Shown: positions 1-61,968 of the stretch, one piece after another
Layout: the number at the start of each line of letters is the position of its first letter
Numbering within the stretch: position 1 is the first letter of the stretch
Source of the DNA: a virus
Reading direction: 5' to 3' (one strand)
Length of the DNA stretch: 64,000 nucleotides
IMG/VR virus record: IMGVR_UViG_3300028746_000015
Location: 1-64,000 of that record
The notes under the pieces: generated by a model
Told to the model about the DNA's origin: nothing
Databases searched by the model: none
The model's input: the letters and a program-made list of their open reading frames with translations, nothing else
Position numbers and translations under genes: made by a program

Positions 1-48
1 GGTCTCGGTCTGGGTCTTGGTCTCGGTCTGGGTCTTGGTCTGGGTCTA
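1..48. repeat. GGTCTN simple tandem repeat at window edge
   Basis: The window opens inside a G/T-rich array of the hexamer GGTCTN. The larger unit is an 18-base repeat (GGTCTCGGTCTGGGTCTT) present about 2.6 times. The array may extend left of the window, so its true size is unknown. No gene is evident in it; the PEP-CTERM gene and its leader follow. Confidence 0.85.
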
Positions 49-63
49 CCGTATAAATACGTG

Positions 64-129
64 GGAGGGTACTGCAAAAGGTACCCTCCAGCATAACCTC
101 AACGTAGCTCTTACAACGCCCAAGGAGGG
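64..129 (+). promoter_or_regulatory. Leader hairpin able to pair with the ribosome binding site
   Basis: A perfect 9-bp hairpin (GGAGGGTAC at 64-72 with GTACCCTCC at 81-89) lies upstream of the PEP-CTERM start. Its 3' arm contains CCCTCC (84-89), which is also complementary to the GGAGGG of that gene's Shine-Dalgarno at 123-128. The two pairings exclude each other, so the hairpin could keep the ribosome site free. An A/T-rich TATAAA at about 51 could be a -10 element. That it is regulatory is inferred. Confidence 0.4.
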
Positions 130-133
130 CATT

Positions 134-784
134 ATGATTAGTACCCGACGCATCGCATCAGGACTTTATATCCTAGTCACCGCTGCCAGCCTTATGTTTC
201 CGGCAGTCGCACACGCCGATCAGCTCTCCCTTGTGGGAGTAGGTAACGGCGCGACAACCCCCAACGGCGCGGATTATGTGGGTCCGTATAGCATCGGCGT
301 AAACGGTACTCCAGTCAGCATGTACTGTATCGACATCGACAACGAGATCACGGTCGGCGAGACCTGGAGCGCAACCCGCTCTACTCTTTCCGTCGACAGT
401 TCCGGCGATCTAAAGGCAGCGGCAGAAGTCATCGCGGCAGCTCAACTTGGCGCGATCAGTCAGGTGGATGCGCAGCTCGAAATTTGGTCTCTCCTAGACT
501 ACGACGCGACGGCGGCGGTAGGCCTGACACAGGCGGAAGTCGACCAGCTACACTACTACGAGTTGGCTGGTCTTGACGACATCGGGGGAAATGCTTTCTT
601 CAACCAGTTCACTTTGGAAACGGCGGTATCAGGCTCTCAGAGCAGCGGCGGAACAGCTCAGGACTTCCTTACCGAAGCGGCGGTTCCTATGGCTCCAACA
701 CCTGAGCCCGGCAGCATCTTACTCCTCGGCTCCGGTGCGCTGGGCGCAGCAGGCATGCTGCGGCGGAGGTTTATCACTGCCTAA
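134..784 (+). CDS. Exported PEP-CTERM-anchored protein
   Basis: 216 residues. The start is the ATG 4 bases after the strong AAGGAGGGC site; an upstream in-frame start would run back through the simple repeat. The N terminus is a signal peptide (basic TRR, hydrophobic stretch, likely cleavage AHA-DQ near residue 28). The C terminus has the full PEP-CTERM tripartite signal: PEP at 190-192, a hydrophobic helix to about 207, then an RRR cluster and six further residues. Such proteins are sorted by exosortase to the outer surface in diderm bacteria making exopolysaccharide. The central part (30-185) is acidic, has one cysteine, and resembles nothing I can name. No exosortase gene is in the window, so the host enzyme must be used. 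A phage origin is surprising; a host-derived moron affecting the cell surface (for example superinfection exclusion) is an inference. Confidence 0.9.
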   Translation: MISTRRIASGLYILVTAASLMFPAVAHADQLSLVGVGNGATTPNGADYVGPYSIGVNGTPVSMYCIDIDNEITVGETWSATRSTLSVDSSGDLKAAAEVIAAAQLGAISQVDAQLEIWSLLDYDATAAVGLTQAEVDQLHYYELAGLDDIGGNAFFNQFTLETAVSGSQSSGGTAQDFLTEAAVPMAPTPEPGSILLLGSGALGAAGMLRRRFITA

Positions 785-806
785 TATCTGGCGGACATCG
801 ACATGG

Positions 807-878
807 TAGGCCGTAGCTCAATGGCAGAGCACCCGACAGATAAACGGGAGGTTGTGGGTTAGAGTCCCATCGGCTTAT
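807..878 (+). tRNA. tRNA-like cloverleaf, degenerate
   Basis: The sequence folds as a tRNA: acceptor TAGGCCG (807-813) with CGGCTTA (871-877, one G-U pair), D arm GCTC/GAGC (816-819, 827-830) with GG in the loop, anticodon stem CCCGA/ACGGG (832-836, 844-848; innermost pair A-A), 5-base variable loop, and T arm GTGGG/CCCAT (854-858, 866-870). The anticodon would be GAT (Ile) in the loop CAGATAA. Two near-invariant bases are lost: position 33 is A instead of U, and T-loop C56 is A. No CCA is encoded. It could be a decaying tRNA gene or a tRNA mimic rather than a decoding tRNA. Confidence 0.5.
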
Positions 879-931
879 CACAACATCAACGCATCACAAC
901 CCGCAGCGATGCCCAAAGGAGGGCAAATTCA

Positions 932-1408
932 ATGGCAACCAAGAAGACTCTCAAAGCACCGGCACGCAGGATCATAGAAGCGATGATCGAGCGAGTAACC
1001 AACGAGCCAAAACTCCTCGATCAGAACGCTTTCCCAGACAACATTAGCCCAGTATGTGAAACGCCTTACTGCGCCGCTGGTCACATCGTCTATCTCCAAA
1101 GCAAGCGAAAGTTTGCAGACCTTGTGAAACAAGGCTACGACCGTAAGCGACAAATCGACATAGTAGACATATGTGATGCGCCCAGGGTAACCTGGGCATA
1201 TGAGGCTGCTACTATACTCGGCCTTCCGAACGCAGATGACTCGACGTTTGCTAGCTACAAGCCACTGTTCGGTAGCGTCGGTATAGGATGGTTACCAAAG
1301 TATCGGAACATGTACAACAAAGCCAAGACACAGAAAGGACGCGTCAAAGTTTTCGCAAAGATGTGGACGAAGTTTCTCGAAGTGGACGGAGATGTAAACG
1401 CACTTTAA
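932..1408 (+). CDS. Hypothetical phage protein with Cys-x4-Cys-x-AGH motif
   Basis: 158 residues, preceded by AAAGGAGGG at good spacing. The motif CETPYCAAGH (about residues 43-52) recalls a widespread group of small phage and actinobacterial proteins carrying C-x4-C-x-AGW, whose function is unknown to me. The C-terminal third is basic (KAKTQKGRVKVFAKMW). No signal peptide or membrane segment. Likely cytoplasmic early protein, cotranscribed with the 94-residue protein that follows 19 bases later. Confidence 0.75.
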   Translation: MATKKTLKAPARRIIEAMIERVTNEPKLLDQNAFPDNISPVCETPYCAAGHIVYLQSKRKFADLVKQGYDRKRQIDIVDICDAPRVTWAYEAATILGLPNADDSTFASYKPLFGSVGIGWLPKYRNMYNKAKTQKGRVKVFAKMWTKFLEVDGDVNAL

Positions 1409-1427
1409 CTCGGGAAGGAGCAAGTGT

Positions 1428-1712
1428 ATGGCTATCAAACGGATGGTCCACAACCTCGCTCCGACTCCCATCCAGCCTGCGATCTATCAGCAGTTCCGTG
1501 GATGCGAGAAGAAGAAGAGGTATGAAAAGCGATTCGGTCATGGCAGTGCTGAGGCCGCAATCGAAAGTATCAAGCGTAACGGTACGGACAAAAAGCCGCA
1601 CCGCACGCTCAATAGTTACAAGTGCAATACCTGCTTCGGCTGGCACGTAGGTCATCTACCAGATGGACGCCGCAAAACCGAAGCACAGATTATTTCAGAA
1701 AGTAGCATTTAG
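1428..1712 (+). CDS. Small basic zinc-ribbon-like protein
   Basis: 94 residues; GGAAGGAG sits 7 bases before the ATG. The core has a Y-x-C-x2-C-x-GWHVGH arrangement (about residues 64-75), a pattern I know from many short phage proteins with a Cys/His zinc site, plus a lysine-rich GCEKKKRYEKRF stretch. Nucleic-acid binding is plausible but unproven. A direct repeat AGTAGCATTT x2 overlaps the stop (1701-1720). Confidence 0.75.
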   Translation: MAIKRMVHNLAPTPIQPAIYQQFRGCEKKKRYEKRFGHGSAEAAIESIKRNGTDKKPHRTLNSYKCNTCFGWHVGHLPDGRRKTEAQIISESSI

Positions 1713-1725
1713 TAGCATTTAGTTC

Positions 1726-1754
1726 TTGACATCGTATTCACACTACGATAGTCT
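1726..1754 (+). promoter_or_regulatory. Sigma-70-type promoter
   Basis: TTGACA (1726-1731), 17-base spacer, TAGTCT (1749-1754). It lies in the gap before the 255-residue gene at 1821, leaving a leader of about 60 bases. Confidence 0.65.
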
Positions 1755-1820
1755 ACAACCAGTTCGTAATCATACAACCTATTCAAGCTATTCACTACCG
1801 CCCCAGGAGGGCAAAACAAT

Positions 1821-2588
1821 ATGTCAAAGTCTACCATCATCCCACAATCCGTCATCGCTGCACTCCCTACAGGCGAACTCGCAGACGGTCTCCACCAAAT
1901 CGGCCACATCGTCCGCGACCACCTCGGCAAGCAGAACTCCGGTAACATTATCCTTGAGGCCGCATACCGTCTCGCAGAAACCCGCAAACTCTCCGAACGC
2001 GCCACGGCGGTCATCTTGCACTCGCTCGATATATTCATCGCCGATGACTGCAAGGTCGTCGACGGCTGCACTCACTTCGAGGGTCTGGAAATTCCTACGC
2101 GCGAAGAGATGGAAGAACTCATCAACGTCATCGCAGAGCGCGGTCTCGCCACCCTTCCGGTCCCTGAACCCGAGAGTCAGGAGTCGGACGCGGCTGACAT
2201 CAGCGGCGAAGGCAGAACTCCGGAAGCCCCTGCTGCACCGGCTGGCATCGCTGATCTATTGTCGAAGCTTGGAGGATCAACGGTACCTGACGCTGAGCCG
2301 GGTCAATCTGACGAGGCGGAGCTTGTCGGCTCATTGAAGCGTTCGATTATCCGCCTCCTGTTCTCAGTTCGCTCCGGCAACGAATTGACGCGGGAGTCCT
2401 TGGACGCAGAGATGGTCAGATTCCGCAATGAATTGACCCAGGTTATGACCGCTACCGCTGGTGATGGCTCTGAGGGCGGAAAGTTCCTCGAAGCTGCAAA
2501 TGCCCTTGGTGTACCGGTACCTTCCACCTTCGCAGAAATTGAAGACGTAATTGCGAAGACTCGTAAGGAGCTTGAAGAGGCTCTGTAA
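1821..2588 (+). CDS. Hypothetical acidic two-domain protein
   Basis: 255 residues; AGGAGGG lies 10 bases before the ATG. An alpha-helical N-terminal half (about 1-115) is joined by a Pro/Ala/Glu-rich linker (about 112-155) to a second helical, charged domain ending in RKELEEAL. I recognise no family. It has its own promoter (1726) and a strong terminator right after it (2606), so it forms a single-gene transcription unit, which often marks an abundantly made early protein. Confidence 0.8.
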   Translation: MSKSTIIPQSVIAALPTGELADGLHQIGHIVRDHLGKQNSGNIILEAAYRLAETRKLSERATAVILHSLDIFIADDCKVVDGCTHFEGLEIPTREEMEELINVIAERGLATLPVPEPESQESDAADISGEGRTPEAPAAPAGIADLLSKLGGSTVPDAEPGQSDEAELVGSLKRSIIRLLFSVRSGNELTRESLDAEMVRFRNELTQVMTATAGDGSEGGKFLEAANALGVPVPSTFAEIEDVIAKTRKELEEAL

Positions 2589-2605
2589 CCTCAACCAGAA
2601 GCGCA

Positions 2606-2645
2606 CCCTGCCAGGGAATGAAAAACTGGCAGGGTTTTTTTTATC
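2606..2645 (+). terminator. Rho-independent terminator
   Basis: Perfect 9-bp GC-rich stem CCCTGCCAG (2606-2614) / CTGGCAGGG (2626-2634) with an 11-base A-rich loop, followed by a run of ten T. Ends the 1821 gene. Confidence 0.95.
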
Positions 2646-2680
2646 GTCTCTACCTGTGGAAAAATGGCAACACAAAGCCC

Positions 2681-2709
2681 TTGACATAAAGCTGGTCTTT
2701 CGATATTGT
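2681..2709 (+). promoter_or_regulatory. Sigma-70-type promoter for the recombinase operon
   Basis: TTGACA (2681-2686), 17-base spacer, TATTGT (2704-2709), following the terminator directly. The ATG at 2727 is 17 bases downstream, with GGAGG between, so the 5' leader is very short. Confidence 0.75.
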
Positions 2710-2726
2710 TGTTTCACGGAGGATTT

Positions 2727-3245
2727 ATGAAGCATCTCAGTAAAACACAGCTCAAGGCTCTGATCCAAGCTACTGCCGATGTACAGGCGAAGCTGATGGT
2801 GAAAGTTGCGTATAATCACGGTTTGAGATGTTCAGAAGTCGTCAACCTGACAGGAGCAAACATCCGCGATGGGTTCCTGTCCATTCAGCGTCTCAAAGGC
2901 TCCAACAAGACCGTCCAGCGTTTCAAGTCATCCTCGGACCCAGACTTCGATGAGTTCACCGATCTCGTGGCATTGTCCAAGACGCTCAAAGCAAAGGACC
3001 GGCTCTTCCCAGGCTGGACGCGGTTTGACCTCGGCTATCAGATACGGAAGGCTTGCGCCAAGGCCGGTATCCCTCAGCATCTCGCCCACCCTCACGCACT
3101 TAAGCACTCTACCGGCATGGCCATGATCCAGGGCGGCATCGAGTTCACGCGTACGTACCTCGGTCACAAGAACATCGCCTCGACCGGCTACTACGTCAAT
3201 GTTGACGACACAAAGGCAACGGAGAAAGCGTTCGAGTACCTATGA
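2727..3245 (+). CDS. Tyrosine recombinase, catalytic domain only
   Basis: 172 residues; the start is fixed by GGAGG 6 bases before the ATG. It spans only the catalytic domain of phage integrase/XerD recombinases and lacks the N-terminal core-binding domain (full enzymes run 300-400 residues). Seen residues: Arg I in GLRCSE (R34), beta-hairpin lysine (K57), HALKH (H123, K126), LGH (H147) and the tyrosine pair GYYV (nucleophile most likely Y156). The second catalytic arginine of H-x-x-R is lysine here; other small recombinases I recall also carry H-x-L-K-H. It would cut and rejoin DNA through a 3'-phosphotyrosyl link. No attachment site is evident. It may resolve multimers or integrate; which is unknown. 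Confidence 0.85.
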   Translation: MKHLSKTQLKALIQATADVQAKLMVKVAYNHGLRCSEVVNLTGANIRDGFLSIQRLKGSNKTVQRFKSSSDPDFDEFTDLVALSKTLKAKDRLFPGWTRFDLGYQIRKACAKAGIPQHLAHPHALKHSTGMAMIQGGIEFTRTYLGHKNIASTGYYVNVDDTKATEKAFEYL

Positions 3246-3694
3246 TCTTCTCGATATACGCAGTGGTCGGCACGGTACTGATGTATCTCATAGTTGTAAG
3301 CTGGAAGTACCACAAACGGAATCAGGCTGATACGCAGGCTGAGCTAAATACGAGATACCAAGAGTTCAAGGAATCGCTATATGAAGAACCCGAAGGGCAA
3401 GAAGGCACGCAAAGCGAAGCTGAAGGAGCCAGAGCTTCCGACGATATGGGTGGATCAAAACAAGAAGCCTGTGCGCCTCATACAGATGTCAGTGCCTCAT
3501 CTGAGCAACGCTCTGATCTACATCGACAAGCGTATCCGTACGCTGGAACGTTACAAAGAAGCTATGAACAAGGAGCTAGAGACGCGGCAGCTCTCAGCGG
3601 AGACGAGGGCCATAATTGCAGAGAAAGTATTAGCCTCACGTCCTCCCTCCCCTCCGCGCGGCACAGTGCGCCACTTTCGTCAGGAGGATTCTGA
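3242..3694 (+). CDS. Small membrane-anchored protein with overprinted C-terminal half
   Basis: 150 residues, start overlapping the recombinase stop (ATGA). One N-terminal transmembrane helix (about residues 2-20) is followed by a basic WKYHKR stop-transfer signal and a charged tail. From residue 47 on it overlaps a second ORF (3381-3704) in another frame, and its composition there (Ser/Ala/Gly-rich) looks like a shadow. The real protein may be this whole frame, or the natural stop may have been lost when the downstream gene expanded. Function unknown. Confidence 0.5.
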   Translation: MIFSIYAVVGTVLMYLIVVSWKYHKRNQADTQAELNTRYQEFKESLYEEPEGQEGTQSEAEGARASDDMGGSKQEACAPHTDVSASSEQRSDLHRQAYPYAGTLQRSYEQGARDAAALSGDEGHNCRESISLTSSLPSARHSAPLSSGGF

Positions 3695-3704
3695 TGAGAT
3701 TTGA
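3381..3704 (+). CDS. Hypothetical basic protein with RxFRxE-type C-terminal tail
   Basis: 107 residues; AAGGA precedes the ATG by 9 bases. A Lys-rich N terminus (KNPKGKKARKAK) is followed by a helical region with PHLSNALIYIDKRI and a Pro-rich linker, then VRHFRQEDSDEI at the C terminus. That ending resembles the tails of the proteins at 3694, 13586 and 19569. No known domain recognised. It lies in a different frame over the end of the membrane protein ORF. Confidence 0.7.
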   Translation: MKNPKGKKARKAKLKEPELPTIWVDQNKKPVRLIQMSVPHLSNALIYIDKRIRTLERYKEAMNKELETRQLSAETRAIIAEKVLASRPPSPPRGTVRHFRQEDSDEI

Positions 3705-3975
3705 TGCAGACGGGAAACAGGTTATGCTGACTAGTAAGCGCATTGTATTCTACAAAAAGAGATGCGAGGATTGCCAGAAGCTTCTTGATGCCGCATCCGA
3801 AAAGGTAAAAGTATCGCATGGCAGCGAGGATCGTGCTCATTGGTTAGGTCTCTTGCAACTACGTGAGACAATCGGAACTAACTTGCTTTTATCAAGGATT
3901 CTTGCTAAGGTGGACCCAGACGGACCAGATGTCGAAGCTACAGCTGGGAGGCTATTTCGTGATGACGAAGCGTAA
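3694..3975 (+). CDS. Hypothetical protein with RLFRDDE tail
   Basis: 93 residues, good AGGAGG site 6 bases upstream, overlapping the previous stop by 11 bases. Mostly helical (RIVFYKKRCEDCQKLLDAA) with one C-x2-C pair, then an acidic Pro/Asp linker and the terminal RLFRDDEA. The last residues match the ends of other early proteins in this window. Function unknown; a helical adaptor is possible. Confidence 0.75.
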   Translation: MRFDADGKQVMLTSKRIVFYKKRCEDCQKLLDAASEKVKVSHGSEDRAHWLGLLQLRETIGTNLLLSRILAKVDPDGPDVEATAGRLFRDDEA

Positions 3976-4378
3976 AGTACCAACCCACAGTCCGGCCTTG
4001 ATGATCGTGATGACAGCAATCATCGTCCTAGCTCTTCTCTTCCTAGCCTCTCAGTGCTCGGCGCAGACTACCTTCCATGCCGCCCGGCCTACCGAGTACG
4101 TCGAATCTTGTCCGGTCTTCATGGGTCGCATCAAAGGTCAGATGCTCGACGTCACGCGTAAAGAACTGGACCTGAACCAAGGCAATAAGCGTGCGATCCG
4201 GTTTTATCAGCATCGACTGACAGATGTACTAACCACACATGATATGGTGGTGTCGGATATGACATGCACAACTGATAGTAGGCGTGACCTACGGATGATC
4301 CTCCAGAAGTGGGAACTCGACTACGTGCAGGAGAAGTACGGACCCCAGATCGAACACTCCACGGTGAAGGGATGGTAA
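3962..4378 (+). CDS. Exported or membrane-anchored small protein
   Basis: 138 residues. The ATG overlapping the previous gene's end by 14 bases is preferred, because it begins a basic MTKRK followed by a long hydrophobic segment (about residues 12-30) ending LFLASQCSAQ. That can be a signal peptide or an anchor; the residue before the cysteine is Gln, so it is not a good lipobox. The exposed part has four cysteines or fewer and is of no known family. Probably acts in the periplasm. Confidence 0.7.
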   Translation: MTKRKVPTHSPALMIVMTAIIVLALLFLASQCSAQTTFHAARPTEYVESCPVFMGRIKGQMLDVTRKELDLNQGNKRAIRFYQHRLTDVLTTHDMVVSDMTCTTDSRRDLRMILQKWELDYVQEKYGPQIEHSTVKGW

Positions 4379-4388
4379 AGAAAAAGAC

Positions 4389-4417
4389 TTGACAGCCTGG
4401 GGTATACGTGTTATTGT
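4389..4417 (+). promoter_or_regulatory. Sigma-70-type promoter
   Basis: TTGACA (4389-4394), 17-base spacer, TATTGT (4412-4417), directly after the exported-protein gene. Same -10 hexamer as the promoter at 2681. Confidence 0.75.
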
Positions 4418-4457
4418 AAAGAAGTAAACACAGCAGTATCTTGTGGCAAGGCGTAGG

Positions 4458-4664
4458 ATGTCTAGACCGTACTACGCCGCACCGAAAAGTCGAGGGGCGC
4501 GCCCGGTAGACCTAGTAGCTGTTCACGACTCGAACTCGTGCATCTCTAAGGGGATGGCCAGTGGCAGTCACAATAATTTAGTTTCAAAGCCCAGACTGAT
4601 CGTTGACTCGACAGATGGAGCAGCAACAGACAACACAAGGAACTACCCGTTTGACACAGTTTGA
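4458..4664 (+). CDS. Doubtful small ORF
   Basis: 68 residues from the ATG with AAGG about 6 bases upstream; a GTG at 4443 is an alternative start. It lies just after the 4389 promoter and overlaps the next gene by 50 bases out of frame. The N terminus is basic, the rest polar with no recognisable motif. It also contains a small perfect hairpin (CACGA/TCGTG near 4533). It may be coding or simply an untranslated leader. Confidence 0.35.
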   Translation: MSRPYYAAPKSRGARPVDLVAVHDSNSCISKGMASGSHNNLVSKPRLIVDSTDGAATDNTRNYPFDTV

Positions 4665-4926
4665 ACTGAAGCACCCTCGCCTCCGCTACAACGCCGGAGC
4701 AGCATCATTCCAAGCAGGTTTCCTACAGAGTGCCAACCCGTACAAGACCAAGAACGAACGAGAGAACTGGGAGAAAGGTTACAGAAGTGCCAAAAAGTTC
4801 TTTGAAACCGGTAGACCAGTGCAATCCGACAAACCCCGTCATTTCAAGCGACCGGGTGCTCAGAGTTCTGGCTTCACCCCTCGTAGAATCGAAAACTTCA
4901 ACAACAGGTATCGGACAGTCGCGTAA
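4615..4926 (+). CDS. Ribosome modulation factor-like small protein
   Basis: 103 residues. The central part, roughly 25-60, has the pattern G-x2-SF-x2-GF-x3-NPY-x7-W-x2-GY, like the bacterial ribosome modulation factor (GY-x-AG-x-CPY-x6-W-x2-GW). RMF dimerises and inactivates 100S ribosomes in slow growth, and short RMF-like proteins occur in several phages. Here the Cys before PY is Asn and the last Trp is Tyr. The C terminus adds a basic Pro-rich tail. A role in modulating host ribosomes is inferred only from this motif. Confidence 0.65.
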   Translation: MEQQQTTQGTTRLTQFELKHPRLRYNAGAASFQAGFLQSANPYKTKNERENWEKGYRSAKKFFETGRPVQSDKPRHFKRPGAQSSGFTPRRIENFNNRYRTVA

Positions 4927-4939
4927 GCGGACACAGAAG

Positions 4940-5137
4940 GTGCGAGGACCAGCGACTCCAAAGTATGAGGCTACTTATCCTTTAGAGTCGCTGGTCCGGT
5001 TCTATGATGATGGCTGGAGGGTAGGCTATTTAGAGTCATACGAGAGTAGAAACAAGTTCGTGCGGGTGCGACAGATCGGAGGCAACCCCGCCGCCCGGCG
5101 CGCCAAGGTGCTGACATCGGAGATAGAACTGGCATGA
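4940..5137 (+). CDS. Hypothetical small basic protein
   Basis: 65 residues if begun at the GTG after a weak purine-rich site; the same frame is open upstream over the RMF-like gene, where its composition looks like a shadow. The body (YPLESLVRFYDDGWRVGYLES) resembles a small beta-barrel (SH3- or KOW-like) with a basic NPAARRAKVL end. The stop overlaps the next ATG. Family not recognised; start uncertain. Confidence 0.55.
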   Translation: MRGPATPKYEATYPLESLVRFYDDGWRVGYLESYESRNKFVRVRQIGGNPAARRAKVLTSEIELA

Positions 5138-5340
5138 TGACAAACAAAGAAGAGGCTCAAGTAGATATTGCTTTGGCTGATACCCATGACGACGTCGTAG
5201 AGATCATCGCCAGATACATTGAAACCGACAGCCAGTGCCTTATGCCTATGAGAGCGGAGTACATCGGTGAGACCAAATATGCGTACGGATTACGTATGCT
5301 GAAAGTACTGGCCGAAGAGATCAGAGAGCTAAAGAGCTAA
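5134..5340 (+). CDS. Hypothetical small acidic protein
   Basis: 68 residues starting with ATGATG across the previous stop; ends in TAATG shared with the nuclease gene. All-helical, acidic, no motif recognised. Translational coupling to the PD-(D/E)XK nuclease gene is evident from the overlap. Confidence 0.65.
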   Translation: MMTNKEEAQVDIALADTHDDVVEIIARYIETDSQCLMPMRAEYIGETKYAYGLRMLKVLAEEIRELKS

Positions 5341-6809
5341 TGCCAATTTCAGAAAAGTTTATCCAGCGATGGGGCCAAGTAACGGAAGAGTATAGTTTTT
5401 ATCAAGGCGAGGTCGTGCTCCGTTACGACGTCAAAAAGCACAAATATTTCCTACTCAAGGATGGTGTAGAAGAGCTTCAGGATGGTGTTACCCAGTGCGT
5501 TCACATCATCGACAAGTCCGAAGTTCTGATGAATTGGGCTGTGAAGGTCATGGCTCAGAAGGTGCTAGACACTACCCCATCATTCGAGCTACCTACCGGG
5601 GAGAAGTTTGTCCCTCAGATGGAGTGGTCGAAGTACGAGAGGATCGTCCTCGAAGGAAAGAAGGCCAAAGATGAGCACCTTGAAACTGCCGGAGGGATTG
5701 GGCACGAGGCCCATGACTGGATTGAGAGGTTCGTTAGAGCAACCCTCGCCGGAAACGAGAACCGGCGTCTTGAACTACTTGCAAAGTTTCCAGAAGATGA
5801 AAGAGCCAGGAATGCTTGTCTCGCAGCTTTGGAGTGGATGTCCAAACACAACGTCCGATGGCGAGCCACTGAACAGAAGATTTATAGCCGTACCTACAAG
5901 TACGCCGGGACGATGGACGGCCTCGCTGTCGTCGATTCCTGTGACGACACAGCATGCTGCCCTAAAGAGTTCAAAGACCGACTGACCATCGTCGACTGGA
6001 AGACGTCGAATTACCTATATCTCGAATACCTCCTCCAGACCGCCGCGTACCAGCACGCGTTCAACGAGATGGAGATGTGCCGGTTAGGGATGAACGAGCT
6101 GAAGTACTGGCTTTCAGAGCACGGTGTTACCGACCGCTGGGTAATCAGGCTAGGCAAAGACAGCGCTGAGTTCGATCCGTGGCATCTGACCTTGGAGGAC
6201 TACGAGCAGGATTTCGAGTGCTTCAAGGACGCACTCACCCTCGGACGCCACGTCGACGCCATCAAAGCCAGGATCAAAGCCGTAGAAGACCGCGCGCGGG
6301 ACGCTCGTAAAGCCGTCAGGGACGCCGCCAGAGCCGCCAAGGAGGCAGCGGAGGCCCAAGAACGCGCGGATGCCAAGGAAAAGAAGCAGGAAGCCCGTAC
6401 GGAGGCGCTGAAGAAGGCCTGTCCTAAGAGTAAAACCTATAAGGGAATGAAAGCTCCTACGTGCGGACCTTGCGAGGCCTGTAAAGCGATCTATGAGGCA
6501 AGGTGTTCTCAAAAAGAGATCAAGAGTTCTCAGATTGAGAACAAGACTGCGCCTGTAAAGCCCTTAAAGAAAGACACCCTGAAAAGTCTGTTGGAACTTA
6601 TAAAGCCTCAGATGCATGAACTGGTTCCGGTCATCACTGCTCCTAATGGTTTTCAAATGTACCCATCCACAGGTCCAGTACACACGCATCGAGTACGCGC
6701 AGTTCAAAGGCTCTTGACAGCCGGACACGATGAGGTATATTGTCCAGAACACGGAACAATGTATGGGTATTGTTCAGAATGTGTACGTTTAGGCTTGACA
6801 AGGTTCTAA
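5340..6809 (+). CDS. PD-(D/E)XK exonuclease (RecB/Cas4-like)
   Basis: 489 residues. Motifs of the PDDEXK_1 nuclease fold are in order: GHEAH (121-125), a glutamate in TEQKIY (178), GTMDG (190-194, Asp), IVDWKTS (Asp219, Lys221) and QTAAYQHA (Gln233, Tyr237). These build the metal site of RecB- and Cas4-type 5'-3' exonucleases. A long charged coiled coil (about 305-360) and two Cys clusters follow (C-x2-C motifs in CGPCEAC near 395-400, and CPEHGTMYGYCSEC at the end), which look like zinc ribbons or an iron-sulfur site. Likely role: DNA end processing in recombination with the phage RecA, or host DNA breakdown. TAATG overlap with the preceding gene. Confidence 0.85.
   Translation: MPISEKFIQRWGQVTEEYSFYQGEVVLRYDVKKHKYFLLKDGVEELQDGVTQCVHIIDKSEVLMNWAVKVMAQKVLDTTPSFELPTGEKFVPQMEWSKYERIVLEGKKAKDEHLETAGGIGHEAHDWIERFVRATLAGNENRRLELLAKFPEDERARNACLAALEWMSKHNVRWRATEQKIYSRTYKYAGTMDGLAVVDSCDDTACCPKEFKDRLTIVDWKTSNYLYLEYLLQTAAYQHAFNEMEMCRLGMNELKYWLSEHGVTDRWVIRLGKDSAEFDPWHLTLEDYEQDFECFKDALTLGRHVDAIKARIKAVEDRARDARKAVRDAARAAKEAAEAQERADAKEKKQEARTEALKKACPKSKTYKGMKAPTCGPCEACKAIYEARCSQKEIKSSQIENKTAPVKPLKKDTLKSLLELIKPQMHELVPVITAPNGFQMYPSTGPVHTHRVRAVQRLLTAGHDEVYCPEHGTMYGYCSECVRLGLTRF
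6714..6741 (+). promoter_or_regulatory. Possible internal promoter
   Basis: TTGACA (6714-6719), 16-base spacer, TATATT (6736-6741) inside the end of the nuclease gene; it could drive the small Cys-rich genes from 6835. Confidence 0.45.
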
Positions 6810-6834
6810 AGATGTCAAAAAAGAAAGGTCCTCA

Positions 6835-7020
6835 ATGAATAAACCAGTTCCAGCCTCCCCAGCACAGAAACTAACCCTGAGAGAAATCGTGGGTGAAGTC
6901 AAGAAGATGATGCAATGCTGCTGCGATCTCGATAACTGGCAACCGGAGCCTTCGACGGGCCACAGTTGTGTATGCAGAATCCACAAGACGGCAATGGAGA
7001 GATTGAGGAACCAACGATGA
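6835..7020 (+). CDS. Small Cys-rich protein, N terminus shared with next gene
   Basis: 61 residues; AAAGG lies 7 bases upstream. It starts MNKPVPASPAQ, and the next gene starts MSDKPASPAQ; the DNA shares the 17-mer CCAGCCTCCCCAGCACA. A CCC cluster and CVCRIH at the C-terminal half suggest a metal site. The stop overlaps the next ATG. Function unknown. Confidence 0.65.
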   Translation: MNKPVPASPAQKLTLREIVGEVKKMMQCCCDLDNWQPEPSTGHSCVCRIHKTAMERLRNQR

Positions 7021-7478
7021 GCGATAAACCAGCCTCCCCAGCACAAATAAGTGACGAGCGGAAGAATTGCAAACATATCGTGATGACCAACTTCTGTGTC
7101 GCTTGTGGCGCAGGTCCGTTGGAACCAGTTGAAGCGCCCAAGCACACTATTAACGCTCAAGGTATCTGCGAGCAGTGCGAACCGGAAATAGCTGCCAAGT
7201 GTGAACCAGTTGAAGTGGTAAGCACTGCGCCAAAGGAGATTTGCGATAAGTGTGGTGCGTCAATTTACTTCAGCGAAGGCAGTCAGCGATGGACCCTAAA
7301 CGATGGATCAGGGCGCAATATATGCCCCGTAGTAAAGGGTATAGCCCCCAAACATAGTCCTAAAGTTTCAGGTAATCCGTGGGACAGTGAGCGCATCACG
7401 GGATACAAAAGCAAGGTAAGTACTCCTCTACCGCAACAGGCCAAGGGAGAAGCAGTGAAACCAGCTCGTGGGAATTAG
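7017..7478 (+). CDS. Multi-zinc-ribbon hypothetical protein
   Basis: 153 residues, ATGA overlap with the previous gene. Several metal-binding pairs are seen: CKHIVMTNFCVACG (about 19-32), CEQCEP (about 52-55) and CDKCGASIYF (about 77-86), followed by a polar, probably disordered tail. The spacing suggests two or three small zinc ribbons as used for nucleic-acid or protein binding. The N terminus was probably duplicated from, or to, the preceding gene. Confidence 0.7.
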   Translation: MSDKPASPAQISDERKNCKHIVMTNFCVACGAGPLEPVEAPKHTINAQGICEQCEPEIAAKCEPVEVVSTAPKEICDKCGASIYFSEGSQRWTLNDGSGRNICPVVKGIAPKHSPKVSGNPWDSERITGYKSKVSTPLPQQAKGEAVKPARGN

Positions 7479-7573
7479 TGAAGGAAGTGTCCGAGGAGCA
7501 TAGAGAGCGTGCCGAACTAGCTGAAGCCTCCTTAGCTGCCACACAGAAAGAGATAGAGGAGCTGAAGCGATGA
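7478..7573 (+). CDS. Mini coiled-coil ORF (doubtful)
   Basis: 31 residues from a GTG that overlaps the previous stop (TAGTG). The product is one uninterrupted charged helix (EEHRERAELAEASLA...). Such micro-ORFs are common in phage operons, but nothing beyond the overlap and composition supports it. Confidence 0.35.
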   Translation: MKEVSEEHRERAELAEASLAATQKEIEELKR

Positions 7574-7612
7574 ATCAACATACTGAGAGGGTGGGAAATG
7601 TAATTTTAGTAG

Positions 7613-7641
7613 TTGACATCTGGGAGCTGATGTGGTAAGCT
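7613..7641 (+). promoter_or_regulatory. Sigma-70-type promoter upstream of structured leader
   Basis: TTGACA (7613-7618), 17-base spacer, TAAGCT (7636-7641). Transcription would start near 7648, so the leader begins with the 5' strand of the long closing stem at 7647. Confidence 0.7.
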
Positions 7642-7646
7642 AGTAT

Positions 7647-7797
7647 TAGGTGAGGGGCCAGTCTAGGGGCACCGCAAGGGTAAGTCCGAAGCATCTTATC
7701 CTTCAATGGTAGGATAGCCAATTGACGCCCTCACCTAGCTCCTACTCCTCAATAGAGGAGGGAAGCTGTAGGTACGCCGGGTAGCAGCGACCGGCTT
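7647..7797 (+). ncRNA. Structured 5' leader RNA (candidate riboswitch or cis-regulator)
   Basis: Between the promoter and the gene at 7798 lie about 150 bases with dense pairing: a perfect 10-bp closing stem (TAGGTGAGGG 7647-7656 / CCCTCACCTA 7728-7737), an inner hairpin (TATCCT 7697-7702 / AGGATA 7711-7716), then CTCCTC 7745-7750 / GAGGAG 7755-7760 with an AATA loop, and GCCGG 7776-7780 / CCGGC 7791-7795 ending 2 bases before the GTG start. The best Shine-Dalgarno (GAGGAGG, 7755-7761) is sequestered in the third stem and lies too far from the start. It does not match the riboswitch classes I know (cobalamin, SAM, glutamine, preQ1). Regulation by this fold is inferred. Confidence 0.6.
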
Positions 7798-8709
7798 GTG
7801 GAAACTGACATAGTGAGTGAAATCGCAATTGTAGGACAGCCGCAGGGTTCAGGTCTCGCGACCACCCCAGCAGCGCAAGCAGTACAGAAGTTCAGCAGCA
7901 AGGTCAATTTTGGATCGAAGTTCGCAAAGGTCAAGCCCGGTACCGTCAACATCGTTCAGCCGAACTCTCAGGCCGAGGGCGCTATCAAAGGCAACCTTCG
8001 TATCCATGAAACAGGAGACCAATTTAAAGAAATGCGCGTTGCGCTCCTCTTGGAACCGGTCGAGCAGCGTGCTTACTACATCGGTCAGGGCGACGGTCAG
8101 ATGAATCGTACTCCTGAGAACCTGATGTGCTTCTCGCGCGATATGAAGCAGCCTGACGCGAAGGCAAAAGTGCCGCAGAGCTTTACGTGCGCCGGTTGTC
8201 CGAACGCTTCTTGGGACAAGTACCGTCAGACGAAGAGCAAGAACGACATTCCGCCGTGCGATGCTTACTACCACGTCGTCATGATCGACGGAAACTTCAA
8301 GCTGCCGTTGCAGATGTATGTTCGTTCGAAGAGCAAGAAGCCCTTCGACACGATCATGGAAAACGTAACGCGTACGCTTCTGAAGTACCGGTCTCAGACT
8401 GGAATCGAGCCCGACTACTTCGACTGCACATTCACACTGTTCACGAAGGCTGAGAAGAATAATAACGGTACCACGACTTACGTCCTGGCCGGTAAGGACT
8501 TCTCGATCATCACTCCTGAAGAGCGTGAAGAATTCGGTGAAGTGTTCGCTAACTTCGTAGCTGCCCGTACCTCAGCCGGTCCTGAAGGTGTCGACGTTGA
8601 GACGAAGCAGATCGCAGCAAACGTACAGTCCGTGGATGACATCGCTACCGGCGACACCAAGGTACTTGAACCTGAGTACGTGGCTGAGACGGAAGAGATC
8701 GCAATCTAA
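7798..8709 (+). CDS. Probable ssDNA-binding-type replication protein
   Basis: 303 residues starting at a GTG with no normal ribosome site (another GTG is at 7813). The order VKPGTVNIVQPNS, then G-x-LR, then CFSRD, a C-x2-C zinc-like pair (CAGCP), and a beta-rich core matches a group of phage proteins I recall without a firm function. It ends in a long acidic tail, AETEEIAI, nearly the same as the primase-helicase end (KETEEIGI). Phage SSBs such as T7 gp2.5 use acidic C-terminal tails to contact the replisome, so a single-strand-binding or annealing role is a reasonable inference. It sits alone between two structured RNAs under its own promoter. Confidence 0.75.
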   Translation: METDIVSEIAIVGQPQGSGLATTPAAQAVQKFSSKVNFGSKFAKVKPGTVNIVQPNSQAEGAIKGNLRIHETGDQFKEMRVALLLEPVEQRAYYIGQGDGQMNRTPENLMCFSRDMKQPDAKAKVPQSFTCAGCPNASWDKYRQTKSKNDIPPCDAYYHVVMIDGNFKLPLQMYVRSKSKKPFDTIMENVTRTLLKYRSQTGIEPDYFDCTFTLFTKAEKNNNGTTTYVLAGKDFSIITPEEREEFGEVFANFVAARTSAGPEGVDVETKQIAANVQSVDDIATGDTKVLEPEYVAETEEIAI

Positions 8710-8714
8710 CAAAG

Positions 8715-8819
8715 CTTGTTCAGCAGGCCGTAGGTTCGCTACCAGCGGGAGACACTGAACAAGAGGTGCGCGGGGTACCTCGGCGTGAGCCAAAACCCCG
8801 ACAATTTGAAGTCCCGCTG
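8715..8819 (+). ncRNA. Pseudoknot-forming RNA after the 7798 gene
   Basis: Right after the stop lie two interleaved perfect stems: CTTGTTCAG (8715-8723) with CTGAACAAG (8755-8763), and CAGCGGGA (8743-8750) with TCCCGCTG (8812-8819). The order a-b-a'-b' is that of a pseudoknot. Inside are a small hairpin GTAG/CTAC (8730-8741) and CGGGGT (8771-8776) / ACCCCG (8795-8800). There is no T-run, so it is not a plain terminator. I cannot assign it to a known ribozyme or riboswitch class. It may be a 3'-UTR stability element, a small RNA, or the leader of the following Acb2-like and RNA ligase genes. Confidence 0.55.
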
Positions 8820-8876
8820 ATGCGGCGTGCTGGGGGCCACGAGACAAGCTCCCTGATTTATAAAAGAGGACTTGAC

Positions 8877-9092
8877 ATGCACGCAGAGTTTGAAGTACAC
8901 TTGTTGAATGATCTGGGAATAGCAAAAGCAAAGCGCATCGCACAGGAGTTTGACGACTTCCTTACGAAGATTGAAAACCTCGTACCACAGGGTCGCAGCT
9001 TTTCCATCGTGAAAACTAAGCTCGAAGAAGCGTCCTTCTTTGCCAAGAAGGGCATGGCATCGGAACCATATAACCAGAAGGCACAAGGATAA
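8877..9092 (+). CDS. Acb2/Tad1-like small helical protein (DUF7681-like)
   Basis: 71 residues; AGAGGA 7 bases before the ATG sets the start. Two amphipathic helices end in RSFSIVKTKLEEASFFA (residues 40-56), which resembles the R-x2-S-x3-TKLEEA-x-MWA signature of the Acb2 family (T4 Vs.4-like proteins). Those form hexamers that sponge cyclic di- and trinucleotides and so block CBASS and related defences. Family assignment is by eye from this motif and the size (Acb2 is about 90-100 residues, so this is short). The TTGACA overlapping its start codon is probably accidental. It leads the RNA ligase operon. Confidence 0.65.
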   Translation: MHAEFEVHLLNDLGIAKAKRIAQEFDDFLTKIENLVPQGRSFSIVKTKLEEASFFAKKGMASEPYNQKAQG

Positions 9093-9096
9093 TTCA

Positions 9097-10278
9097 TTGT
9101 TCATTCACGAGTACCTAGATATCGAGAAACTGAAGTCCCACGTTGAAGCCGGTCTTGTAGACATGCGCTCACATAAAACCCTACCTCTCGTCATCTATTG
9201 CTACTCGCGGAAGGCAATGCAAGATGATCTTTGGGATTCTGTGACAACGCGCACAAGGGGCCTGATCGTTGAGAGCACCAGCGGCAGGATTATCGCTAGG
9301 CCGTGGGAAAAGTTCTTTAACGTTTCTACGACGTATCGTGAAGAAACATGGCTTACTAACCTTCCTAAGACGCAGCCTACCGTCACGGAAAAGCTCGACG
9401 GATCGATGGGCACGTACTGGAAGTATGAAGAAGCTGACGGTATAGTCCATGAAGGCATCGCTACTAAAGGCTCGTTCCACTCCGAACAGGCTGAATGGGC
9501 GACTGCATGGCTAGCTAAGCACTATATTGACGGCAGTAAAGAACTGACTCATTTCGGACATGCTTGGCCTAAAGGCTACACGCCGATGTTCGAGATCATC
9601 GCCCAGGAAGTTCAATCGCATCCGGTCCACTACGACGCGACTATGGATAATCAGCTAATCCTGACGGCGTGCATCAACAATGAGACCGGCGAGGAACTAT
9701 CACTTATAGACTTAGGCTACTGGGCGTGGCTAAACAACATCCAGTGTGTCGAACACTTCGACAAGACTGTAGGAAAGGTCTTGAACGAAGACCGCAAGAA
9801 TAAAGAGGGCTATGTCCTGACATGGGCACGTACGGGTCAGCCGCCACTGAAGGTCAAGGTGAAGCATGAGAGCTTCTTGCTCATTCAGAAGATCAGCCAC
9901 AACGCGACACCGAAACACATCCTCCAGGCACTCATTGATGGTCGAGCAGAAGACGTGCAGAGGTGGATGGAGACGGAGAGCCCTGAACTTAATCAGTTCG
10001 TGCGCGGATGGTTCATGAGGTTTAGTGAGGCCTTCGGCAAGATTGGCCTCAAGGTGCGCGAGACGGTCATCAAGGCAAAGACGAGCTGCACTACGCGTAA
10101 GGAGACGGCACTGTTCCTGGCCAAAAAAGAGAACGTACTGTACGCGTCGGCAGCATTCGCCATGATCGACGAAAAGGATTGGGGCAAAGTTGTCTGGAAG
10201 ATGATCAAGGAAAGCATCGCCAACGAAGAGGACGTCTTCTTCATGAAGGACGATGAGACTGACGAGGATAAGGAATGA
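9097..10278 (+). CDS. rnlA: T4 Rnl1-type RNA ligase
   Basis: 393 residues from a TTG start with AAGGA 6 bases upstream. The nucleotidyl-transfer motif TEKLDGSMG carries the nucleophile lysine at residue 99, the same position as Lys99 of T4 RNA ligase 1. Further motifs: RGLIVES upstream, FEIIA, EGYVLTW (motif IV) and LKVKVKHESF (motif V). The length is near T4 Rnl1 (374). The C-terminal part (about 260-393) fits the Rnl1-specific domain. The enzyme adenylates itself with ATP and seals 3'-OH/5'-phosphate RNA ends; in T4 it repairs tRNA cut in the anticodon loop by host nucleases. Two HAD phosphatases lie downstream. The acidic end DDETDEDKE is probably disordered. Confidence 0.9.
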   Translation: MFIHEYLDIEKLKSHVEAGLVDMRSHKTLPLVIYCYSRKAMQDDLWDSVTTRTRGLIVESTSGRIIARPWEKFFNVSTTYREETWLTNLPKTQPTVTEKLDGSMGTYWKYEEADGIVHEGIATKGSFHSEQAEWATAWLAKHYIDGSKELTHFGHAWPKGYTPMFEIIAQEVQSHPVHYDATMDNQLILTACINNETGEELSLIDLGYWAWLNNIQCVEHFDKTVGKVLNEDRKNKEGYVLTWARTGQPPLKVKVKHESFLLIQKISHNATPKHILQALIDGRAEDVQRWMETESPELNQFVRGWFMRFSEAFGKIGLKVRETVIKAKTSCTTRKETALFLAKKENVLYASAAFAMIDEKDWGKVVWKMIKESIANEEDVFFMKDDETDEDKE

Positions 10279-10535
10279 AGAGCATTTTAGCAGGAGTAGC
10301 CCTAGCGGTTGTGATCTTCTCCGCACTCAAGCTGACAGCAGTCAAGGCCGACGAAGCCGGTAACCATCGGATATACCTGACGGGTTACAACACGTTCCAG
10401 AATGAAGACACGACCGCCGAGATATTCCGTGACAGCAAGACGAACACGGAGTTCATCTGCTTCCGTCACCAGTACAACGCTCAAGATAACTTCTCCTGTG
10501 TGCAACTCGATCCTACAAAGGTCGTGAAGCCATGA
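10275..10535 (+). CDS. Small secreted protein
   Basis: 86 residues, ATGA overlap with the ligase. Clear signal peptide (MKSILAGVALAVVIFSALKL, likely cleavage near VKA-DEA, residue 25). The mature part is about 60 residues with two cysteines that could form a disulfide (EFICF, FSCVQL). The family is not recognised. It lies between the ligase and the HAD phosphatase with overlapping starts, so they share an mRNA, yet it acts outside the cytoplasm. Confidence 0.7.
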   Translation: MKSILAGVALAVVIFSALKLTAVKADEAGNHRIYLTGYNTFQNEDTTAEIFRDSKTNTEFICFRHQYNAQDNFSCVQLDPTKVVKP

Positions 10536-10924
10536 CACACCCAGCAGAACCCAAAAGCATAGCAGTGGATTTTGACGAGACGCTTGTATCCAGTACATTT
10601 CCAACTATCCACGGTGTAAAGCCAGGGGCCAAAGAAGCTCTCCAAGCTTTCCGTGATATGGGATACAAGATCATCATATCGTCCTGCCGGTCTTGCGGGT
10701 GGAATTGGGAATGCTACTATGGTGACACGCCGTTCAAGCACGCTACTGAACGGGATATCCACAAAGCAATGGTGCGCTTTTTAGATGACAACGGGATTCC
10801 GTACGACGAGATCGATACCGGTGACAAAGGTAAGGTCAGCGCAGTTTTTATGATAGACGACAAAGGGGTACGGTTTGAAAACAACTGGCCCGAGATCGTT
10901 GAGTTCGTTCGCAGTAGATCGTAA
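10532..10924 (+). CDS. HAD-superfamily phosphatase
   Basis: 130 residues, overlapping the previous stop. HAD motif I is AVDFDETLVSS (Asp nucleophile and the +2 Asp-like acid), motif II SSC in IIISSCRS, and a late acidic motif FMIDDKGVRF (DD). A short cap region contains a Cys/Trp-rich stretch. It hydrolyses a phosphomonoester; the substrate is not evident. Placement behind the RNA ligase suggests a possible RNA 3'-end phosphatase as in T4 PseT, but there is no kinase domain, so this is only contextual. Confidence 0.8.
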   Translation: MTHPAEPKSIAVDFDETLVSSTFPTIHGVKPGAKEALQAFRDMGYKIIISSCRSCGWNWECYYGDTPFKHATERDIHKAMVRFLDDNGIPYDEIDTGDKGKVSAVFMIDDKGVRFENNWPEIVEFVRSRS

Positions 10925-60936: not shown

Positions 60937-61968
60937 TTACGAAATCGCCGATGCAGCATCTATTTCGCGGATGCGGATCGTGGTGTCGGGACCGAGGCTG
61001 GTAGTGAAGTGAACCTTGTAACTGGTCCATCCAGGGATCAAACCTTCGGGGTCGGCAACGCTGTTAGGCGCATTCTGCGTGATGTTCGGCTTGATGTTGT
61101 TCCACTCGCCGTCACCGTACTCCGTGTCGCCCTGTGCTCCGAGCTTGATGGAGTAGATACCGTCACGACCGAAGATGTAAGTGCGAAGGGCGGTGAGGCC
61201 GGTGATCGCCTTATAGTTCGGAGTGGCAGTAACCTGATTCGACTGGAAGAAGCGGACGCCCGAGGACGGCAGCTCGATCATTTCGGTCAGGTCGGTGCTG
61301 ATGAGGTCTTCCATGCGCATGAGGCCGACCGGAGTGTGCTTCAGGATGTCGATGGGGCTGTTGTTGCTGACATCAGAGAGCACGTCGCCGAGAGCGAACG
61401 GATGGATGACTCCACAGAAGCTCTTGGAAGCTTCGTCAAACGGACGGACGGAGCGACCTGCGAGGCCCTGCACGGCGTTACGAATCTGGTTCAAGCTGAG
61501 AGTCGTAAAGCTGGTGGTGCTGGTCGCGGCAAGCTGCACAAGGACGCTAGAATCAACTGCGGTAGCGCCGTCTGCGGTTGCGCGAACGAGACCAGAGAGG
61601 GATTCGCCGAGGCGATATGCCATCTCACGAGCAACGTTCTCAATCGTGTTGTCAATCGCGGTGGCGAGAGACAGCGAGGAGAAGTTGGCGAAGTCGGCGT
61701 ACTCGCCGATGGTCGCGGTGGTATTCAGTACGGAAACAGTGATCGAGTTGCCGACAGTACCTTCCGTGGTCTGCGCAGTGTTCGCAGCCAGGGGCACGTA
61801 CATAAACATCTCGTATTGATTACCACTTTTGGTGGGTAGGTCGAGTCGTTCGGAGCAAGCTACGAAAGGCGTCTGAGCCTTAAGATTTTCTCGGAACTTT
61901 TTATCATAGAACTTTACAGTGGACTGAGGCAGATTACTCTGGCCATTTGCTGCTGGGTTATAAGCCAT
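60937..61968 (-). CDS. Major capsid protein (N4-gp56/P22-coat-like HK97 fold)
   Basis: 343 residues; AAAGG 8 bases before the ATG. The N terminus STVKFYDKKFRENLKAQTPF, then the long E-loop/spine region (TEGTVGNSITVSVLNTTATIGEYADFANFS; YRLGESLSGLVRATADG), FCGVIHPFALGDVLSDVS and FQSNQVTATPNY match the N4-gp56 family of major capsid proteins found in podoviruses and related phages. It forms the icosahedral shell after scaffold-directed assembly. It follows the scaffold gene and precedes a terminator, as expected for the most abundant virion protein. Confidence 0.9.
   Translation of the reverse strand: MAYNPAANGQSNLPQSTVKFYDKKFRENLKAQTPFVACSERLDLPTKSGNQYEMFMYVPLAANTAQTTEGTVGNSITVSVLNTTATIGEYADFANFSSLSLATAIDNTIENVAREMAYRLGESLSGLVRATADGATAVDSSVLVQLAATSTTSFTTLSLNQIRNAVQGLAGRSVRPFDEASKSFCGVIHPFALGDVLSDVSNNSPIDILKHTPVGLMRMEDLISTDLTEMIELPSSGVRFFQSNQVTATPNYKAITGLTALRTYIFGRDGIYSIKLGAQGDTEYGDGEWNNIKPNITQNAPNSVADPEGLIPGWTSYKVHFTTSLGPDTTIRIREIDAASAIS

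Follow-up and report, generated by a model that had tools for sequence, protein, structure and literature searches.

A phage gene for a secreted PEP-CTERM protein

The stretch of DNA analysed here, called the window, comprises the opening 64 kb (64,000 nucleotides) of the 85,920-base IMG/VR record IMGVR_UViG_3300028746_000015, and the gene under study therefore lies near a contig end. This gene (134-784, + strand, from the ATG start through the stop codon) encodes a secreted PEP-CTERM protein of 216 residues, in which a thioester-domain-like ectodomain (residues 29-184; 218-685, +) is set between a signal peptide and a C-terminal sorting signal. A Shine-Dalgarno sequence, AGGAGG (123-128, +), precedes the start codon, and AGGAGGGCA is also found 5′ of the genes at 932 and 1821.

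The signal peptide comprises residues 1-28 (134-217, +) and reads MISTRRIASGLYILVTAASLMFPAVAHA|D, with an RR n-region and a hydrophobic stretch recognised by hydropathy and inspection. At its AHA|D cleavage site, A28 is shared by 33 of 36 relatives and D29 by 24 of 36. The PEP-CTERM signal (695-766, +) consists of PTPEP, a hydrophobic helix and RRR; the C-terminus of the protein is PTPEPGSILLLGSGALGAAGMLRRRFITA, and the protein ends in TPEPGSILLLGSGALGAAGMLRRRFITA. Matches to PF07589 (E 5e-5, 23.6 bits against a curated cut-off of 20.7) and TIGR02595 (E 1.2e-4, 22.6 bits against 16) both exceed the thresholds, which bears out the preliminary description of a signal peptide combined with a PEP-CTERM signal. 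Against the whole 86-kb record, PF07589 gives a single match (E 1.1e-6), and a strict pattern for open reading frames ending in PEP-CTERM is found at a single place in the window and in none of 40 codon-block shuffles. With both the C-terminal motif and the N-terminal signal peptide present, the product is a PEP-CTERM protein; its cleavage and surface localisation are predicted from these signals. No named PEP-CTERM subfamily matches the ectodomain above cut-off, and a PHROGs search with the 216-residue protein returned no match.

Phage genome and host

The contig L002 (IMGVR_UViG_3300028773_000015) is 100% identical to the window over positions 1-10781 and extends 8973 bp further to the left; this extension encodes two proteins of phage families, an ATPase and an HNH endonuclease. 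Across the genome, some 70 protein matches in almost entirely colinear order connect the record to Tunturi_3 (PP885686), a cultivated podovirus of Tunturiibacter psychrotolerans (PMC11924767), with identities of 90% for the major head protein (60937-61968, - strand, a marker of phage identity and of the link to the host), 55% for the terminase and 60% for the primase-helicase. The PEP-CTERM gene lies between homologues of Tunturi_3 gp96 and gp84. The latter, a short tyrosine integrase (2721-3245, +), forms the right border of a site common to Tunturi_3 and to a sister phage, in which an orthologue of the window protein directly follows the gp96 homologue and an integrase homologue lies further downstream. 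Phage genes continue leftward in L002, the genome and that of Tunturi_3 are colinear, and the sister phage has an orthologue at the same site; the gene at 134-784 is therefore a genuine phage gene, as had been proposed. The same three observations rule out a chimera or prophage edge, and the concern that this region might be bacterial flanking DNA proved unfounded.

The exosortase model PF09721 matched none of 11 phage records, among them the window's own record and the complete genomes of Tunturi_3 and Tunturi_5, in agreement with the earlier statement that the phage carries no such enzyme. Exosortase was present in all 10 Acidobacteriota genomes tested behind loci of bacterial relatives, and in 35 of the 41 genomes from an Acidobacteriaceae genus to which one relative-bearing genome belongs. 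Since the enzyme is absent from the phages yet present in relatives of the host, the phage must rely on that of its host. Bacterial relatives of the 216-residue protein are almost all from Acidobacteriota, and Tunturi_3 and Tunturi_5 grow on Tunturiibacter. Judged from such relatives, an Acidobacteriota host is supported, and together with the exosortase counts these findings favour the Acidobacteriota-like host suggested at the outset. The whole record (window 1-64000 together with L004, L005 and L002) reads as a relative of Tunturi_3, which also fixes the host group as Acidobacteriota.

Several further features surround the gene. The end of a GGTCTG hexamer repeat occupies window positions 1-47; in L002 this repeat has 27 copies (8860-9020), which probably caused the contig to end at the window start. 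The repeat (L002:8860-9020, to window 47) is in frame upstream of the gene and encodes V-S/L-V-W repeats. It is followed in the gene leader by an inverted repeat, GGAGGGTAC / GTACCCTCC (64-89, +), found by direct reading of the sequence, and the two together possibly form a variable regulator. A 12-bp tandem repeat at L002:5140-5486, encoding Ala/Ser/Arg/Trp repeats, lies inside a 255-residue open reading frame (4760-5527). Directly 3′ of the PEP-CTERM gene is a tRNA-Ile (GAT; 807-879, +), and ARAGORN found none in the sister-phage locus L082. A phage exonuclease (5340-6809, +) belongs to the presumably early, + strand DNA-metabolism block.

Relatives in phages and Acidobacteriota

Homologues of the window protein recur in other phages. 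The sister phage, present in several metagenomes (L082, L084, L086), encodes an orthologue of 226 residues that is 49% identical in a three-phage alignment and retains all motifs. Tunturi_5 gp179 (PP885688, 125878-126516), annotated as hypothetical and flanked by an exonuclease and SbcD, is 44% identical and has all motifs together with PEP-CTERM. Tunturi_5 is an isolated jumbo phage of the same host species, reported to be unrelated to the other Tunturi isolates (PMC11924767). A more distant homologue is found between RecA and SbcD on phage contig L104. In two different phages (L104:7135-7671 and L003:11959-12597), a thioester-type PEP-CTERM gene is seen beside RecA or an exonuclease together with SbcD.

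PEP-CTERM proteins with other ectodomains are encoded by Tunturi_5 (gp97), by the 231-kb phage contig L031 (two proteins) and by L033. Tunturi_5 gp97 (L099:5108-5704) and L031:5497-6099 share an N-terminus of membrane type and a linker rich in Pro and Thr, and look related by eye. The gene at L033:5404-6084, from a phage present in three metagenomes, has an unrelated ectodomain and lies between the terminase large subunit and the portal gene. The proposed search for further phage PEP-CTERM proteins was thus productive, with examples in L082/L084/L086, Tunturi_5, L104, L031 and L033; none occurs in Tunturi_2, 3 and 4. As the IMG/VR scans were pattern-based, the count of phages that carry genes of this sort is a minimum. 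A tblastn search of the phages with a 30-residue PEP-CTERM consensus gave zero matches and missed even Tunturi_5, and is uninformative. The thioester-like ectodomain and its recurrence in several Acidobacteriota phages go beyond the preliminary description.

Among 120 genomes from a single Acidobacteriaceae family, 24 encode the same ectodomain, its tail nearly always PEP-CTERM or a variant of it. A genome scan with a two-phage alignment as the query gave no matches; re-aimed at the PEP motif, the scan recovered the Acidobacteriota relatives. In a tree with the Acidobacteriota proteins, the sequences from the window, L082 and Tunturi_5 group together as a single clade (100/97-98). This clade is embedded in chromosomal proteins and adjoins L054 from the Acidobacteriaceae genome G108 (100/97), whose neighbourhood is chromosomal and non-phage. 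The L104 protein takes a separate position on a long branch. This pattern fits capture from a host followed by exchange among phages.

Conserved residues and predicted fold of the ectodomain

In a 36-sequence alignment, four columns alone show no variation: those of Cys65, Trp118 and Gln176, and that of the first Pro of PEP. Cys65, Trp118 and Gln176 are unchanged in 36/36 and 34/34 sequences of two alignments that span Acidobacteriota and phages. Cys65 (326-328, +), invariant in all relatives, is the sole cysteine of the window protein and the predicted thioester cysteine, within the motif YCID; 31 of the 36 sequences have no second cysteine in the ectodomain. A helical motif, QLEIW (Gln114-Trp118; 473-487, +), contains the invariant Trp118 and fits the TQxx-Phi-W pattern of thioester domains, and AQDFL (residues 175-179; 656-670, +) contains Gln176. 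Cys65 and Gln176 are 111 residues apart and invariant, though the sequences are down to 24% identical. YCID, AQLEIW and AQDFL match the published thioester-domain motifs, with Ala here in place of the Thr of TQ. These motifs were described by Walden 2015 (PMC4450167), where thioester domains were found in Gram-positives only, and the pLS20 thioester domain likewise has YCID (PMC8092201). A cysteine protease or transglutaminase was considered and ruled out, as the family has no conserved His. The chromosomal PEP-CTERM family with the thioester-domain signature (for example L058, L054 and L007) is missed by the Pfam thioester model. Profile searches of PDB sequences (two, and one with L058) returned no meaningful match, and a search of BFVD returned no viral one.

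Comparisons of structure and profile point towards the same fold. When the ectodomain alone was modelled with AlphaFold (pLDDT 77.5, pTM 0.75) and the model searched against 350,542 PDB chains, two thioester domains ranked first, at modest E-values: 6fwv (E 0.007, probability 0.85) and 6fx6 (E 0.1). The third match had an E of 1.3. Over 199 Acidobacteriota genomes, PF08341 yielded one match (E 0.0016), and this was L058, a family member found earlier with the ectodomain profile. In hhalign, the profile was set against 11 thioester domains from plasmids, that of pLS20 among them, and the Cys residues fell in register.

Other results weigh against a reactive, surface-sorted thioester protein. 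PF08341 gave no direct match to the phage proteins or their close relatives. The bridging match lies just under the cut-off (L058: 19.8-21.2 bits against 22; in hmmscan, E 0.0011 and 19.8 bits), and L058 is deep-branching. The TM-scores were 0.41 for 6fwv and 0.32 for 6fx6, the better of them under the usual 0.5, and an earlier full-length AlphaFold model (pLDDT 69) gave no thioester domain and no useful fold match. The hhalign score of 17.3 against 15.0 was above 30 shuffles but weak (P 0.12). On the phage protein itself, then, no single thioester-domain test reached usual significance. Tunturi_3 has no PEP-CTERM gene, which marks the gene as accessory, and we infer expression time, localisation, thioester and phenotype alike. 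Profile searches of PDB sequences (two, and one with L058) returned no meaningful match, and a search of BFVD returned no viral one.

Because the tests are taken together and the motif-based prediction preceded the fold search, we regard a thioester-domain fold as likely. For the same reasons a working Cys65-Gln176 thioester, proposed from the conserved residues and the modelled fold, appears somewhat favoured.

Proposed function at the infected-cell surface

The explanation that best accommodates these data, to which we assign a probability of roughly 0.5, is that of an early, host-exosortase-sorted thioester protein that remodels the surface of the infected cell. The gene would be phage cargo taken from Acidobacteriota and retained in several of their phages. 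Its place in the + strand DNA-metabolism block, opposite the structural genes, suggests early or middle expression; an early type of expression is also suggested because the neighbours are similar elsewhere, namely exonuclease and SbcD in Tunturi_5 and RecA and SbcD in L104. Judging from what is known of the family, the protein would be exported by Sec, and a host exosortase would recognise its PEP-CTERM tail and direct it to the outer surface or the exopolysaccharide. There, Cys65 and Gln176 may form an internal thioester in the compact ectodomain, which could react with an amine or hydroxyl of an adjacent envelope molecule and so fix the phage protein covalently. The target would be close by, as the protein has no stalk. 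The most likely benefit would be the masking or cross-linking of receptors or matrix, which would keep progeny of the phage itself, as well as other phages, from adsorbing.

A protein that is sorted to the surface and has a fold of TED descent need not be reactive. It could serve simply as a matrix or coat protein and alter exopolysaccharide or receptor exposure, and the PEP-CTERM evidence applies equally to such a protein. This alternative fits the failure of direct TED profiles to detect the phage proteins and the remoteness of the fold match, but in the absence of a Cys-Gln bond it is difficult to see why Cys and Gln should be invariant in sequences that otherwise vary almost throughout and of which 31 of 36 have no partner Cys. 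We consider it unlikely, though deserving of serious attention. Somewhat less plausible is a role in spread, in which the infected cell would be covalently tethered to neighbours or matrix in soil aggregates and new hosts thereby brought to the progeny. Thioester domains are adhesins (PMC4450167) and the pLS20 thioester adhesin aids conjugation (PMC8092201); the window protein, however, is one small stalkless domain on a sorting signal, which would be held close to membrane or matrix, unlike the long TIE adhesins. The missing stalk therefore favours masking or cross-linking of the cell's own envelope, that is, control of superinfection and readsorption, over the tethering of other cells.

It is improbable that the product is a virion or lysis-related protein instead of a host-surface protein. 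The L033 gene between terminase and portal would suit that role, but its ectodomain is different, the genes in the window, L082, Tunturi_5 and L104 all stand in DNA-metabolism blocks, the window has its structural genes on the other strand, and no virion role is known for exosortase substrates. A bacterial flank, a chimera or a recent accidental capture without function is hardly credible, given that the gene lies at the record end beside a repeat but L002 goes on leftward with phage genes, and that a same-site sister orthologue only ~49% identical retains all motifs and the complete isolate Tunturi_5 carries a homologue.

More generally, Acidobacteriota phages may use a host-sorted, self-activating covalent "harpoon", a thioester coupled to a PEP-CTERM anchor, to remodel the infected-cell surface, a proposal that we advance tentatively, at a little under even odds. 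If correct, no earlier phage-borne exosortase substrate would be known to carry a reactive thioester, and thioester domains of this kind would be new to diderm bacteria and to the viruses that infect them. It would mean that phages turn to their own use the sorting of proteins by exosortase, a surface pathway found in environmental diderms and with substrates mostly of unknown function, and that the adhesion chemistry of internal thioesters, known from Gram-positive adhesins, reaches into Acidobacteriota and their viruses. A literature search that covered few subscription journals turned up neither a PEP-CTERM protein nor a thioester domain described from a phage, and the Tunturi paper mentions neither PEP-CTERM nor exosortase (PMC11924767). 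Both Tunturi_5 and its host strain, X4BP1 of Tunturiibacter psychrotolerans, are cultivated (PMC11924767), which makes the proposal directly testable; one mass measurement would suffice to check for the predicted thioester.

Comparison with known systems

With known PEP-CTERM/exosortase substrates the window protein shares the signal peptide, PEP motif, hydrophobic helix and Arg cluster, and an exosortase in relatives of the host. It differs in being encoded by a phage that has no exosortase of its own, and in an ectodomain outside the named subfamilies. With the thioester domains of Gram-positive TIE adhesins (PF08341 TED and PF20610 TED_2; 6fwv, 6fx6; SfbI and pLS20 p34) it has in common a predicted strand-helices-strand layout, and the best PDB matches of its model are among them. 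Unlike these, its ectodomain spans ~155 residues and occurs in diderm Acidobacteriota and phages, and the protein has no isopeptide or ester stalk and carries PEP-CTERM in place of LPXTG; it is not a TIE adhesin. By motif the ectodomain resembles a thioester domain, and by fold probably so, but because PF08341 gives it no match above cut-off it is not classed as a member of that family.

Tunturi_5 gp179 has the same motifs and PEP-CTERM and likewise belongs to a phage of Tunturiibacter, although Tunturi_5 is an unrelated jumbo myovirus with a second PEP-CTERM protein, gp97. The PEP-CTERM proteins of Acidobacteriaceae such as L054 belong to the same ectodomain family and share the sorting signal, but are chromosomal. 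The surface proteins by which phages exclude superinfection offer a functional parallel, as the window protein would also act at the surface of the infected cell. To our knowledge, those described so far are lipoproteins or membrane proteins, rather than exosortase substrates or thioester proteins.
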